DNA from: Hesseltinella vesiculosa
Taxonomy: Eukaryota > Mucoromycota > Mucoromycetes > Mucorales > Cunninghamellaceae
Direction: 5' to 3'
DNA length: 64,000 bases
NCBI GenBank assembly: GCA_002104935.1
Contig: MCGT01000051.1
Span: forward strand, 62,001-126,000
Position numbers and translations under genes: made by a program. Positions 27,392 to 33,611 of the stretch are shown in pieces; positions within the stretch are counted from its first letter, which is position 1; the number at the start of each line of letters is the position of its first letter. Under the pieces are notes generated by a model. That model was not told where the DNA came from. It saw only the letters and a list, made by a program, of their open reading frames with translations, and did no database searches.

Positions 27392-28009
27392 TTATGGGTC
27401 ATGAGGATGAGTGTGTTGGCTGGAAGCATCCTTGACCCGTTGTAGGCTGTGCTGATTGCCATACTTCTTGGCATCCATTCTTGCGCGGCGCAAGTCTTCG
27501 GCGCTCTTTTCATGATGGGCATCCAAGGCTCTTATCCAGCGAGAAGCAAAGGGGGTATACATAAAATTGGTGGCTGCCAGAGTGACCATGACCCCAGACA
27601 GGATCAAAAACATAGTGAGATTGCTGGTGTAGCGAGTGTTCTGATGACTGGACCAAGGACCATCTTTGTAGGTCACGTTGTCGCCTGGCACATGGTCAGT
27701 GGGGGTCTTGCCCCCCGTTTTGGGGGTTCCCCAGGGCCCAGGAGCACCGTTGAACGGCGTCTCCCAACCTTCTCCAGTGTCTAGGTATCGCTGACGTTGA
27801 TAGGGGTTCTTCAAAAACTGGTAGGCCTCCAGAACTTGTTGGAATGCCTTGGCATTGCCTCCAGGTTTGGCATCAGGATGCAGTTGCTTGGCCAGAATGA
27901 GGTACTGCTGCTTAATGTCGGTGCTTGTGGCTGTTCTCTTGACATTCAAAATGTCAAATGGGCTCCGTCGTCTTGCGCTATTGCTATACCATCGATAAGA
28001 TCGCCACAT
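27392..28009 (-). CDS. J-domain protein, probably mitochondrial, one membrane pass
   Basis: Single exon, 205 residues. N-terminus MWRSYRWYSNSARRRSPFD resembles a mitochondrial targeting signal. The J domain spans about residues 17-80 with intact HPD in LAKQLHPDAKPG and FQQVLEAYQFLKNPYQRQRYLDTG. A membrane helix follows at about 133-152 (LTMFLILSGVMVTLAATNFM), then a charged tail. It should stimulate an Hsp70; the partner is unknown. Its stop codon faces the F-box gene stop codon, about 75 bp away. Confidence 0.87.
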   Translation of the reverse strand: MWRSYRWYSNSARRRSPFDILNVKRTATSTDIKQQYLILAKQLHPDAKPGGNAKAFQQVLEAYQFLKNPYQRQRYLDTGEGWETPFNGAPGPWGTPKTGGKTPTDHVPGDNVTYKDGPWSSHQNTRYTSNLTMFLILSGVMVTLAATNFMYTPFASRWIRALDAHHEKSAEDLRRARMDAKKYGNQHSLQRVKDASSQHTHPHDP

Positions 28010-28202
28010 GGTGATATAGAAAAAAGGCGTATTGAAACATTTTCACTCCACTATGGAAAAAAAGAAAATTCCGTTACCAATCAGAACTTGTGTAAAGTGT
28101 TGGCTAAAAACACCAATTACCGGATAAAAGCATTAAACGCGTTCTTGCCAGAGCAGACGGTAACCCTTTTTGCGGGGTTGCTTTGGTGAATAAAAATGAA
28201 AG
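28010..28202. promoter_or_regulatory. Short gap: J-protein 5' flank and Fanzor 3' flank
   Basis: Only 193 bp separate the J-protein start codon from the Fanzor-like stop codon. In TnpB/Fanzor loci the guide RNA is usually encoded at or past the 3' end of the nuclease gene, so this stretch and the last exon are where an omega RNA would lie; no structure can be proven by eye. GGTAACCCTTTTTGC at 28159-28173 resembles GGTAACACTCTTTGC at 31712-31726. Confidence 0.4.
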
Positions 28203-31200
28203 CTAAACGATAGGAGAGGTAGGAGGGCGTCGGCGTGGGCAAAAGGCCAGGGGGCGTTGCTTGTGTTGGAAAAAGTGTTGACCAATGGAGATCATGTTGC
28301 AAGCTGCCATGACATCCCGGTCAAAGATGGCCGCACAGGAGCTGCAGCGCAGAAGTCCATAAATCTTGCCCCCATTCATGACTGGGGTTTTGGTTGGGCC
28401 ATGGCAGACAGAGCAGAGCTGCATAAAGAAACAGAATGAGCCACTTCGTTGCGGTTGCCATGCCTTTTTTTTTCACCCACCTTGCTTGTTTTGAAGTCAT
28501 TCAGTGAGATAACAGCAAGCTTGCCCTGACGTTGTCGGTTTTCCAATTGGTCAAACACCAGGGAAGACGAGCCAGGAAGCTGCTTTTTGAGCGGGGCGGC
28601 GACCTTCCGGCCCTTGAGGCCATCACCAAAGAGTATTAATGGAACTCTTTCGCTGGGAAACCTTGTCACACCGTGACGAAGACGTGTGCTTGGCTTCATT
28701 TGCGGCGCAGGTCTACAACAAAAAATAAGCCCGCCTGGACCTCTTGAATACTACGACGACTTGCCTCTTTTCTTCCATTTCATTGATCAGATCAATGCGG
28801 TGGTCACGGTCCAGGTCGCGTTGGGTGCGCTTGGTATGTAATGTTGCTTCCCATAGATCCATCGTCCCATGCAATATCAAACCAGCACTGCATTTCAGCA
28901 AATCTTCGATCTTCGTTATTGCCATGTCCATTGCAGCAAGGTGTTTTCGCATCGCCTCCTTGGCCTTGCTGATCCTGATGGCCCTTTTCTTCCGAGCTTT
29001 CTTCTGACGCTTGCGCCGATTGCGGTGGGTACGCTTACGGTGACCGCGCACATTGCGCTGGGACTTGACATACTTCTTGGACAGGCCAGCAAGAACACTG
29101 GCAACGTATGCCACGCCCCGCTGACGCCCTCTGTAAGCATTGAAGCGGTCGATGGAGTGCTGGAGGCCATAAAAGTCGAAAAAGAGCGGGAGACGATCAA
29201 GCAGGTACTGGATTCGTGTGGCATATTCAGTGGGGCTGGTGGTTTGGTGGGAAGGGATGGCGGCTTCCATCTGATCGAATGGTATTTGCTGACCTCGGAA
29301 GAAGTATGTTGTGGAAACCTTGCGTCGTTCCAATTGTTGGATTCGTCGCTGCGTTCCACATTGCGAGCGGTATTCCTTTGCAGAAACTTTGATGACTCGG
29401 TAAGGCAGATGGTGAGACTGGGGGGTCGGGGTGGTAGGATCGGCATCGTCAATCATAGGCATAGAGAGATTTCCTTGTTCCATATCTGTGCTGCCAGTGG
29501 CGTTGTCAAAGTCCCTATGTTGATGTGCAGGCTGAGCAGTACGAATAGGACATGGGGTGTCGATAGCCATTTGTTCTTCGTCATTATCGTTATCGGGTTC
29601 ACCTTCACTTGCAGAGTCTTCGTCATCCCGGGTTTCAGGGAGCATAGAAAGTGGATAAGGTGTGCCATAGCTTCCGGTGACGATGGCACGGCGGCCTGGA
29701 TCGACGGCGACCATGTCGAAGCGTTCTACCAGTTCGGTATCCCAGTGGTCCAGGCTGGGCAGCTTCATCGTTGGGCGATGCGTGGTTGGCAAGCGAACAA
29801 ATTCAAAGCAGCACGAAACGCCATCACACCAAATGTGGCAAGCAAACAGTGGACGGTTGTATAGTATACCCTCAAGCATGTCCTGGACACTAGGTGAGAA
29901 GAAGAAGAAAAAAGTTGGAAGTTGTTCTTTTTTTTTTTTTTTTGGTGTCTGCAAAACTTGCCTCCCGAACCCAGGCTCGCCAAAGTTGAACTTCTCCATG
30001 TGGAACACCTTGAAAAACATGGGCAAGGCATGGATGAATGCGGCGTCGGGTACACCAGAGTTGTCGTTGTTTGTTTCAATGGCATCGCATTCGGCTAGAT
30101 ATTTGATCGTGTCGGGTAAGATGGGGATGAATCGGCGTCCAAAGTGAGGCTCAGGAAGGATGGTAAGCTTCGGGCATTTTTTAGGGTTGGCATTGGGCTG
30201 GCACTTGTATTGCTCGTAGTGCTTGTTGATGTTGATGTAGACAAGCAAGGCACTGCTGGGGTTTCGGGACAGGGTTGTCGACGTCAATTTGCCAACGTAG
30301 TGGGGTTTCAAGGCCAGTGTTTTCGCCTTCACACTGGCAATGGCCGCTTCTTCGGTAGACACACCAGGGACATTGCTTGTGGCCGATCCAGGTGTGACCC
30401 CTGATTGAGGATGGGAAGGTCTCTCTGCAAAGCTCGTGTAGATATCATCCACCTGCCGGTCAATGTGAGGGATCTGAAAGAGACAAAAAAAAAGTCAGAA
30501 CATATCCCTTGGTTCTTTTTTTTTTTTATAAAACCTATGCTGAGATCCGTGATGGCAAAGGAGAATCGAATAAATTTCTTGACCTTTTTCTCAAAGTCGA
30601 TCACCAAACAATTGGAGTAAGCTGTGGCAAGTGTTGACAAACATGGCCCAAAAGTACCTCCATGAAATTTATGCGGGTGGTGGAAATGAAGGCTGCGATC
30701 ATCAACAGGGATGAGAAGGGCTGCACTGTCGAGTGGGCTCAAGCCTTGGTGGTCGTTGGGGCTGTAGGTGATGTTCGGGTGGTCACGGACGAACTGGTTC
30801 CAGTGAGGCAGGAAGGTGGGAGGAAGGCTTCGTAGGACATGAGCGTTGGTAATCCCTGGTCGACGCGGGTTGCGGGGATAGACGAGTTGCGAGATGGACA
30901 GGAGACCGTTCTGGCTGATCATGATGCTTTTAAAGTCAGACGGGTGGGTGAGAGCGAAATGGTTGAGAAATAATTGGAGGCGGAAAAGGATGTTCTTGTT
31001 GCAGGCGCTGGTCGACTCTATGTTGCGCTTCAAAGCGAGCTTGAACGGTTGCCGGACGGCATCTTCAAAGCTTTTTTTTATCGTGTAGCGCTCACCACCT
31101 GGCATCATTTCGTTGATGTAATCCTTCTTGTTCATGCGATAGTAAGGACAGAGGCGGCTGGCAGACGAACAGTGTCCCATTTGGCCGCATGTGGCACACG

Positions 31201-31516
31201 GTCCCACAGCATCAGGATTTCGCTCATCTTCTTGGCGCTGCCGTCTCCCCTCGGCGCGATCGTTTTGTTCCTGTTGTTGGGCACGTCGTTGTGGCATGGG
31301 CCCAGTTTCCCGTCCTACGAAGATGGGTAAAGAAAAAGACATGATTGAAGTGATGGATGACTTACGTTTGCGATAGATTTTTGCTTGTGACCAAACAGTG
31401 TAGAATTGTTCGGTGGTCATCCAAGCTTGGCCCAACTGATCAGCCAACGCCCGGCGGAAATCTTCTTCAGGGATGTGGCACAGAGTTACGTAGACGGCTT
31501 GAAGAAGCGATTGCAT
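28203..31516 (-). CDS. Fanzor1-like RNA-guided nuclease (eukaryotic TnpB relative)
   Basis: Exons 31516-31366, 31314 to about 30584, 30473-29962, 29889-28765, 28712-28481 and 28418-28203; about 988 residues if the first uncertain donor is used. The N-terminal part has a CCHC zinc knuckle (CATCGQMGHCSSASRLC). The C-terminal part shows a RuvC-type split nuclease: RuvC-I VAVDPGRRAIVTG (Asp codon 29700-29702), a strongly basic helix region KRTHRNRRKRQKKARKKRA, LILFGDGLKGR, SLNDFKTSK, then a zinc ribbon (LCSVCHG and LRCSSCAAIF) and RuvC-III DRDVMAACNM (Asp codon 28314-28316). Fanzor proteins are guided DNA nucleases carried by transposons. Two introns use GCAAGT donors. Exon 2 to 3 phase is unresolved (see findings), so function is not certain. 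No transposase lies beside it. Confidence 0.85.
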
Positions 31517-32150
31517 CAGGGAAAGATAGAAATAAAGAAAAAGATAGAAGAGCCTAGATAAACAAACAAAAAAAAGAATCGCGTGTTGCGGATGATCAAA
31601 CCTTTGCCAATGCCAGCGAGAATGACCGCCAATCACATCCTTAGCCCTTTTTTTTACTACGTACCTTTCTTTTTGAAATATAAAATGAAGTAGCGTACCA
31701 TCAATGATAAAGGTAACACTCTTTGCCTATCTCTATTGCTCATTTTACCGTGCTTCTTAAATAAAAAAAAAATTCAGGCCCCAGAGTCATACTCAGTTAA
31801 ACAAAAATGCTCCAGATTGAAGAAATTGCGACTATCCATACCATTCTGTCTATTTCACGCACGCCTCTCCCTATGCCTTACCATGTTTGGTCTATAAATC
31901 CAAGGTGGTAAAAATAACATGCTTTGCAGAAAGATGCGACAAATTCTTTTCTGCAAAGCGGATCATGTTAGTGCGCTTAGTAGCGCATATGCAACTGGCT
32001 ATGTGATTGGTTGCACTGTATGGGCGGAGACACAAGATGAAATCCAGCCAATCAGTGTTGCTTTCCAGATAGAAAATGGCTTTTTTTTTTTTTTTTCATT
32101 TTTCATTCCCTCTCCTCTCTTTCTTACGATTCCCTTTTATTCATTCCAGC
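31517..32150. promoter_or_regulatory. Divergent 5' region of Fanzor-like and choline kinase genes
   Basis: About 630 bp without an ORF. Contains a perfect 12-base inverted repeat (31921-31932 with 31948-31959), a CCAAT-like GATTGG/CCAATC pair near 32005 and 32050, and a 16-base T run before the choline kinase start. No terminal inverted repeat of a transposon could be matched to the other side of the Fanzor gene. Confidence 0.5.
31921..31959. repeat. Perfect 12-bp inverted repeat
   Basis: GCTTTGCAGAAA (31921-31932) and TTTCTGCAAAGC (31948-31959), with a 15-base spacer. Could be a dimeric regulator site or a hairpin; function unknown. Confidence 0.75.
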
Positions 32151-33611
32151 ATGCCTCCTGACACCACGATTGCCACGCCTGCCACAGATGCTTTGGATAC
32201 CAAGAAAGAAACTTGGATTGACCAAGTGATCAACACTACCCGCTTCATTGACATTGAGGTCGTCTCGACCGATTTATTTGAAGGTGCCTGGAAAGTCGTC
32301 AAGGCCATTTTCCCTGCGTGGAACAGAGACCAAGTCAAGTTTGTTCAATGCAAGGATGGCATCACCAATCAATGTAAGCAATGAAAAGCTGAAGAATTCT
32401 GTGACGCTTTTAAATCCTGATCCGGCCTTTTCCCCGTATTTGTTTGATAGTGGTCCGAGTGACCGAACTTTCACAACAGTTCTCTGTCTTGGTACGAGCC
32501 TATGGCCGAGGATCTGAACGTATTATTGACCGACGACAAGAAATCATTGTAAGTCAGGTCAACGGTAGTGGACAAGAAGGACTCACTCGTCGCTTTATTT
32601 TAAGAACTTGATTACACTGTCGCAAAAGGGACTGGCTCCACCATTGTATGCTCGCTTCCGCAATGGATTGGTATATGGGTTTATCGAAGGTCGGGTATCA
32701 CATGTGAATGATCTCGGCAACCCCAAGATGGCAAGCTGGATTGCGACTCGCTTAGCTCAGTGGCACAAGGTCGAGCTACCCAGCTCGTCGGATCAGCCCG
32801 TCACTCGTGATCAGCAGCTGTGGAAAACGATGCGGTCCTGGTTACAGCAAGGTACATCCATAAGCTACAAAAGATAGGTGACACAGGTGCCCATTGACCA
32901 CGTTTTCTCTATAGTGCCTGAACGTTACAGCGATCCCAAAACTCAAGCCGCCTTTGAAAAACACTTCGATATGAAATACATTACGGAAGAGGTAACATCA
33001 CACCGCACCCCTCCTATCCTCACTCTATTTTTATTCGCTTCTAGCTGGAGCAGCTGATCCAGCAATTGGAAAAGTTGGATCCACAGGTAGTGTTTTCTCA
33101 TAACGATCTCTTGTATGGCAACATCATTTTCAATGATGACAAAGGTAGGACAAGTTTCACACGTGACCTCTTTTTTTTTTTTTGGAGCTGACCCCACATG
33201 TCTTCATGCTCAACCTTTTCACTTTTTCTTTAAATAGAGGAGGCTGCATTTATTGATTATGAATATGGGTGCTACGGCTTCCGAGGTTTTGACATTGGCA
33301 ACCATTTCAACGAATACGCCGGCTTTGAATGTGACTACTCGCAGTACCCCAGTCCCGAATTCCAACGCGAATGGCTCACAGGCTACTTGACGGCCAGCCA
33401 CGACGGCAAAACCCCCGAGGTAAGCGAAGTAGAACAGCTGTACAGTGAAGTCAATGGGTTCTCTCTGGCCTCGCATTATTACTGGGGTCTGTGGGCCTTG
33501 CTGCAAGCCATGGTGTCCGACATCGACTTTGACTATATGGAATATGCTGTGCTGCGATTTAACGAATACGAAAGGAGAAAGGAACAAGTCTTGACCTCGC
33601 TGGCCGTCTAA
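32151..33611 (+). CDS. Choline/ethanolamine kinase
   Basis: Cytosolic kinase that starts the Kennedy pathway by phosphorylating choline or ethanolamine. Six exons (32151-32373, 32451-32548, 32605-32851, 32915-32991, 33045-33144, 33238-33611) close in frame to 372 residues. Motifs: SVLVRAYGRGSERIIDR in the N-lobe, the Brenner motif VFSHNDLLYGNIIF with catalytic Asp, and the choline kinase motif AFIDYEYGCYGFRGFDIGNHF with the Mg-binding Asp. The C-terminus is HYYWGLWALLQA. The family signature does not separate choline from ethanolamine; the rather short form fits ethanolamine kinases slightly better. The exon 3 acceptor is TAAG. Confidence 0.93.

Follow-up and report, generated by a model that had tools for sequence, protein, structure and literature searches.

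Fanzor1 proteins carried by mucoralean transposons, Fanzor genes with many exons and omega-RNAs at the right end of the element are already known, as set out in the main texts of PMC3627910, PMC10432273 and PMC11423790. For Mucor, Rhizopus and Phycomyces, the main text of PMC3627910 describes multi-copy DNA transposons, some of them non-autonomous with inverted repeats, which are either MuDr-like with 9-bp duplications or unclassified; the words EnSpm and CACTA are both absent from that main text. PpFz1 of Parasitella parasitica, according to the text of PMC11423790, is a large mucoralean Fanzor1 that has a RuvC insert and a cyclophilin-binding domain and whose RNA measures about 75 nt. For SpuFz1 of Spizellomyces punctatus, the text of PMC10432273 reports a right-end scaffold of 75 nt with a guide taken from the flank, an RNA that is continuous through the right repeat, and short 'ghost' loci in which the ends of the element are preserved. 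In the papers cited here, Fanzor guides are made as continuous transcripts that run through the element end.

The locus described here lies in a window of 64,000 nucleotides (the whole stretch of DNA that was analysed) of the mucoralean fungus Hesseltinella vesiculosa. Like the elements of the related fungi, it belongs to a multi-copy DNA transposon that is non-autonomous and has inverted repeats; like PpFz1, its predicted product is a large Fanzor1-type protein with a probable RuvC insert, and it has a putative RNA of similar size; and, like SpuFz1, it has a predicted right-end scaffold, a candidate flank guide and short loci that keep parts of the ends. It differs from the Mucor, Rhizopus and Phycomyces elements in having CACTA-type repeats and, where these are clear, duplications of 3-4 bp; from PpFz1, to which PDB searches by sequence gave no match, in that the window copy, alone in its family, has lost the catalytic glutamate; and from SpuFz1 in that an intron-like stretch separates scaffold and flank. 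We conclude with good confidence that the window gene belongs to a decaying member of a multi-copy, non-autonomous family of DNA transposons which encodes a Fanzor1-type RNA-guided nuclease.

The gene occupies positions 31516-28203 of the minus strand and has six exons and five introns, as read from a gene model and an alignment of its copies:

31366-31516, minus strand: exon 1 (gene model, copy alignment)
30539-31314, minus strand: exon 2, which includes the CCHC-type knuckle (splice position taken from the family)
30583, minus strand: cryptic GTCAAG donor near intron 2
30474-30538, minus strand: intron 2, its donor lost, with AT for GT (GT in 19 of the 19 other copies)
29962-30473, minus strand: exon 3 (gene model, copy alignment)
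28765-29889, minus strand: exon 4, with WCDG, RuvC-I (AVDPG) and the basic patch (motif reading, copy alignment)
28481-28712, minus strand: exon 5, in which codon 28498-28496 specifies the RuvC-II residue (D927 in the window copy, E in 17 of the 17 other readable copies)
28203-28418, minus strand: exon 6, with the zinc ribbon and RuvC-III (DRD) (PF07282)

The positions of the introns were identical across all 20 aligned copies. Intron 4 (window 28764-28713) is of the GC-AG type, beginning with GCAAGT in 20/20 copies, and intron 3 (window 29961-29890) is of the same type, with GC at its start in 8/20; in one copy (L012:2475-5327), introns 1-3 are free of stops and in frame, giving a read-through frame of 950 residues. 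The GTCAAG site was considered as the regular donor of intron 2 and dropped, as the alignment places the family donor at the site that is mutated in the window copy. The gene is flanked by two genes that form a divergent pair, one for a DnaJ protein (PF00226 match; 27395-28009, minus strand) and one for a choline kinase (PF01633 match; plus strand, exons 32569-32874 and 33234-33608). A first-pass annotation of this DNA had placed the gene at the same coordinates, with at least five introns, a RuvC-I motif, a CSVC/CSSC ribbon, a DRD motif and an N-terminal knuckle, between genes for a J-protein and choline kinase; all of this was borne out.

To find relatives, we used the largest open frame as a query against the window's own genome (27,050,016 bases in 85 contigs), which returned 92 matching pieces. 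By our grouping, these comprise 23 near-full copies including the window copy, a set of remnants, and four more distant Fanzor groups, which we named families 2 to 5, the window element being family 1. When the 3' end was used as a DNA query, 41 places were found, 23 of them full-length over 372 bases (one over 371) at an identity of at least 89%. Twenty of the 23 near-full copies were fetched and aligned. Once the alignment had been used to transfer the gene model to them, 12 of these 20, the window copy included, showed an intact frame with neither stop nor frameshift. Pairwise dN/dS values had a median of 0.26 and a range of 0.14-0.68 (153 pairs among 18 copies, a set without the frameshifted L013 and L028). 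Two short internal-deletion forms, L040 and L041, keep parts of both ends and are comparable to the SpuFz1 ghost loci. Where the first-pass annotation had offered a choice between a solo mobile element and a host-captured nuclease, the mobile element stands; the 23 near-full copies of our grouping rule out a single captured gene, and they and three faults in the window copy disfavour a solo or captured one.

The limits of the element were taken from a comparison of the edges of these copies and exceed the gene span of 28203-31516:

28047-32019, minus strand: element as common to the other copies, its left terminal repeat missing here (BLAST, edge comparison of 20 copies)
28049-28060, minus strand: right terminal repeat, TTTTTCCATAGTG end (CACTATGGAAAA inverted) (edge comparison)

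All 20 fetched copies had the right edge in common, and the sequences beyond it differed. In family 1 the left edge reads CACTATGGAAAATTTGAG and the right edge is inverted TTTTCCATAGTG; the left repeat, sought as 21 bases with at most two mismatches, occurred at 11 places in the genome. The repeats begin in the CACTA manner, with CACTATGGAAAA in family 1 and CACTAC or CACTAG in family 2. EnSpm/CACTA transposons have terminal repeats that start with CACTA and produce target duplications of 2-4 bp. Here, duplications of 4 bp stood beside whole repeats in L019, L020 and L021, and common flanks of 7-12 bp were found in L014, L017 and L027, each of which is without the first bases of the left repeat; overall, a duplication was clear in 6/20 family-1 copies (L014 and L022 being read by eye from the edge comparison), and none was trusted in the other 14. 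The two left ends fetched for family 2 had a duplication of 3 bp in one case and 9 bp in the other. In L014, L027 and, in family 2, L036 with L056, target sequence replaces the missing start of the left repeat and the common flank is longer, as if the tip had been overwritten. Behind TAGTG, or a variant of it, GA follows in 19/20 copies (GG in L015). By eye, YGA lies a few bases ahead of the left repeat in 13 of the 17 copies with at least a partial repeat (not in L011, L013, L015 or L026), and it may be a target motif.

In agreement with the earlier remark that no transposase stands beside the gene, none of three further open frames, within the element or close by, had a Pfam match. An EnSpm transposase domain (PF02992) was found at seven places in the genome; no matching ends linked the EnSpm transposases of this genome to the element, and a short pattern of the ends was no commoner genome-wide than its reverse (53 sites against 76). 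A transposase encoded elsewhere would move the element, and the EnSpm domains are a possible source of it.

The identity of the protein was assessed from profiles, motifs and setting. Its C-terminus matched PF07282, the Cas12f1-like/TnpB zinc ribbon (E 4.2e-8; 33.7 bits, with the cut-off at 26.3), as did three of three family proteins, and its RuvC-I motif, AVDPG, contains the DPG of Fanzor1. According to the main text of PMC3627910, the Fanzor1 motif is [TS][TS]xx-C4-x(5,50)-RD, with 125-275 residues between the RuvC-I aspartate and the TS motif. In the window protein this pattern begins TSKLC..C, with a C4 spacer of 19 and RD after 5, and the distance is 386 residues, outside the published range (425 in family 2 and 329 in family 4), likely because of a large RuvC insert. 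The 'alternative' RuvC-II glutamate of Fanzor proteins, placed six residues ahead of the zinc finger in the text of PMC10711439, is replaced by D927 in the window copy and present in the other readable copies of the family; sister copies, like families 2 and 4, have an E seven residues ahead of the first cysteine, and an E is found at the RuvC-II site in families 2, 3 and 4 (L036, L037 and L029). For the TDG motif that the same text places within the WED domain of Fanzor1, a candidate site, its WED assignment putative, reads CDG in the window protein, SDG in family 2 and TDG in family 4. The N-terminal knuckle has the form CX2CX4HX7C, and zf-CCHC_6 (PF15288) was reached by one of three family proteins at E 0.0011.

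Matches in the profile libraries were confined to the ribbon with RuvC-III, with nothing over the rest of the protein. In the PDB, searched by sequence, the credible matches were likewise confined to the ribbon (four matches up to E 1), and the best 60 of 110 matches up to E 10 consisted of TranC/TnpB-like ribbons, a short match to GtFz1 at E 0.016 and many chance matches to coiled coils; these PDB searches gave no match to PpFz1. A large protein collection, queried with one region and with a three-member alignment, yielded no relatives. Matches limited to the ribbon were among the outcomes that the first-pass annotation, in calling the gene Fanzor1-like, had set beforehand against its own proposal, and this is what the profiles gave; the class itself is nonetheless supported, because the DPG motif, the glutamate of the sister copies, the RD, the setting inside a eukaryotic transposon (copies and edges) and a structured RNA at the right end, beside the 3' end of the gene (its structure taken from comparison), carry the Fanzor1 call beyond the ribbon. 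The evidence of motif and setting thus supports a gene that encodes a Fanzor1-type protein.

Besides the gene, the copies, the edges of the element and the damage to the window copy, sequence comparison shows a conserved structured RNA block between the stop codon and the right edge. The features of this interval and its flank are:

28121-28186, minus strand: predicted omega-RNA scaffold, 66 nt, three-way junction (family comparison, covariance model)
28051-28120, minus strand: predicted noncoding intron from scaffold to right edge, with donor GTAATT, branch CTGAT at 28084-28080 and acceptor CCATAG
28047-28050, minus strand: TGGA between acceptor and flank, of which GA is probably target sequence (GA in 19 of 20 copies)
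28027-28046, minus strand: candidate guide flank (first 20 bases), just ahead of the DnaJ coding region (by reference to Fanzor/TnpB systems and the edges)

A block of 63-66 nt behind the stop codon is common to families 1, 2 and 3 and ends with TTTAATGCTTTT plus 3 to 8 bases. Families 1 and 2 agree at 50/66 places, equalled by none of 1000 shuffles, and families 1 and 3 at 42/66, equalled by one of 1000. The block folds as a three-way junction with helices P1 (5 pairs), SL1 (6 pairs) and SL2 (8 pairs), in which 97.3% of cells are paired over ten distinct rows and 4/19 pairs are altered on both sides. These ten rows were our choice from 19 distinct scaffolds, the rows left out being two of family 1 (L021 and L040), five of family 4 and two of family 5. 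The start pattern is missing from two further remnants. Among 500 shuffles, the values for the junction were reached by 8 for pairing, 8 for the covariation score, 18 for changed cells, 28 for changed pairs and 28 for pair types; the structure was itself derived by folding family members, and this biases the comparison with slid controls in its favour. With 12 rows, including family 5, RNAalifold returned P1, SL1 and two stray pairs, SL2 being missing. A covariance model of families 1-3, built without family 5, matched 17 of 26 sources, including family 5 (L048 and L049) at E 0.0022; in these 26 it found no match in L052, in family 4 (L029, L030, L053 and L055) or in L032, L038, L042 and L058. 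Folded singly, 7/8 scaffolds had z-scores above -2 (L029, -3.3), and a search of Rfam gave one match, by chance.

Genome-wide, the scaffold motif TTTRATGCTTTT occurs at 88 sites against 11 for the reversed motif, and GTAA lies within 8 nt of it at 43/88 sites against none for the reverse, with the reservation that copies of the same family are not independent. Three sites with motif and GTAA lie away from protein matches (G000 C34:58665-58684, C40:154774-154793 and C34:368080-368101); it is possible that such sites are loci for a guide RNA only, or copies in which the protein part escaped scoring. Because of its position, its shape and its size, close to that of the PpFz1 RNA (75 nt in the text of PMC11423790), we read the block at 28186-28121 as a likely omega-RNA scaffold. 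The first-pass annotation had expected an omega RNA over the last exon and 28010-28202; its proximity to the 3' end holds, whereas the scaffold proves to lie entirely downstream of the stop codon.

Immediately after the scaffold stands an intron-like stretch that ends 4 nt inside the right edge of the element, and for this reason splicing may be what joins guide and scaffold. At the scaffold end, the donor reads GTAAYT in 19/20 copies of family 1 (GTATCT in L017), GTAAAA in 6/6 of family 2, GTAAGT in 1/1 of family 3 and 5/5 of family 5, and GTAAGA in 5/5 of family 4. The patterns used to locate it, which themselves included the first donor bases, matched 37/37 loci of families 1-5 and missed 3/8 remnants; of the five remnants in which the place was located, four have GTAA, and GTAA is also present in two of the other three (L034 and L041). 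In family 1 the stretch is about 70 nt long and closes with a pyrimidine run and AG in 19/20 copies (AA in L027), and in family 2 it closes with TAG in 6/6; the four bases between acceptor and flank are TGGA in family 1 (TGGG in L015) and TGCA in family 2. A full signature of donor at the scaffold end, CTRAY, pyrimidine run and YAG was found in four of seven representatives (L014, L036, L037 and L052) and failed in L049, L053 and L029. For each of the four it appeared at the same place in none of 1000 shuffles, counts that are flattering because the scan was written after the sequences had been inspected. Family 3 is a single copy (L037), for which the distance from acceptor to edge given by the scan carries no meaning. 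When spliced forms were folded, none of four kept all three helices; SL1 and SL2 persisted together only in L044, which also keeps both when unspliced. Within window 28126-28047, the bases ahead of the donor could pair with the last bases of the element, and they covary, as UCC/GGA in family 1 and UGC/GCA in family 2; this is a single case and may be chance.

Intact sister copies would make both the nuclease mRNA and an RNA with a flank-derived 3' part, the DNA just outside the right edge serving as guide. By analogy with TnpB and Fanzor, the nuclease would cut the empty allele beside the target motif, and repair would recopy the element. Splicing would join the scaffold end ...GCTTTTATCCG to TGGA and the flank. 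As a tentative proposal, to which we give somewhat less than an even chance, the spliceosome would complete the omega-RNA, using a donor at the scaffold end and an acceptor in the right edge, so that at each new insertion the flank is joined on as guide. A related arrangement exists in IStrons, which are TnpB elements that carry a group I intron of the self-splicing kind and in which splicing competes with the guide RNA. As in the elements studied here, an intron and a TnpB guide RNA meet at the right end of one element; IStrons, however, splice themselves and in competition with the guide RNA, whereas the signature seen here is spliceosomal and would help to make it. What is possibly new is the succession of a conserved scaffold and an intron signature that ends at the element edge. 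A spliced Fanzor guide RNA goes unmentioned in the main texts of PMC10711439 and PMC3627910, where neither 'splic' nor 'intron' occurs; in the text of PMC10432273 'splic' occurs only in a reference, in that of PMC11423790 only for cyclophilin roles and in a reference, and 'intron' is absent from both.

An explanation that falls just short of an even chance is that scaffold, intron-like stretch and repeat make up a single unspliced RNA that continues into the guide, the splice-like signals being by-products of the CACTA end (TAGTG) and a conserved GUAA. It has precedents in SpuFz1, whose scaffold of 75 nt extends across the right repeat and passes without a break into the guide (text of PMC10432273), and in the Fanzor1 of SfAV, where repeats and target duplications belong to the scaffold (text of PMC10711439). 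The AG is indeed inherent to a CACTA end, but families 3 and 5 retain an acceptor that is no CACTA end; that of family 5, on the other hand, lies about 56 nt inside the edge, in favour of an unspliced RNA. Similarly, the unspliced family-2 RNA folds a strong stem within the stretch, whereas families 1 and 2 resemble each other little in the middle of the stretch (22/40 places, with 23 of 1000 shuffles as good) and the scaffold and the end of the stretch are alike (for the end, 20/28 places and none of 1000 shuffles as good). An unlike middle between alike scaffold and end is the pattern that would be expected of an intron, and the joint occurrence of donor, branch, pyrimidine run and acceptor, correctly placed, in four of the seven representatives also speaks against a single unspliced RNA.

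It is unlikely that the intron is real and belongs to the nuclease mRNA, or to a transcript fused with a neighbouring gene, here DnaJ, independently of any guide. In the window, 37 bases separate the right edge from the DnaJ coding region, and therefore a read-through transcript would splice onto the DnaJ message; flanks differ among the other copies, however, and in every family examined the conserved scaffold stops exactly at the donor.

In the window copy itself, the left terminal repeat is absent, the shared part beginning at 32019, and the intron 2 donor and the RuvC-II glutamate are altered as listed above. The aspartate at RuvC-II was ruled out as a family trait, being private to this copy (L013 and L028 are unreadable at residue 927). 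The cryptic donor of intron 2 could yield a product of 988 residues, 15 residues short, and other families have similar residues at the place of those lost. Since the left repeat is gone, the donor lost and E changed to D, the window copy is probably immobile and inactive. It has 9 private changes that alter an amino acid and 5 that are silent (rough ratio 0.49), not enough for selection and drift to be told apart. Nuclease-dead relatives of TnpB act as repressors. That the host has captured the window copy as a non-cutting RNA-guided DNA binder is very improbable: the missing left repeat, the D for the catalytic E, a frame otherwise open and the position between divergent genes would fit, but the intron 2 donor is lost too, the cryptic donor would delete those 15 residues and the private changes do not separate selection from drift.

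Taken on its own, the window copy is a case of ordinary transposon decay. If the proposed splicing of scaffold to flank is true, it would provide a route to an RNA guide, by way of a spliceosomal intron that separates the two, which is open to eukaryotes only. Most of the terminal repeat would then stay outside the guide RNA, which would be freed from carrying the repeat of the transposase, and the activity of the nuclease would be tied to splicing.
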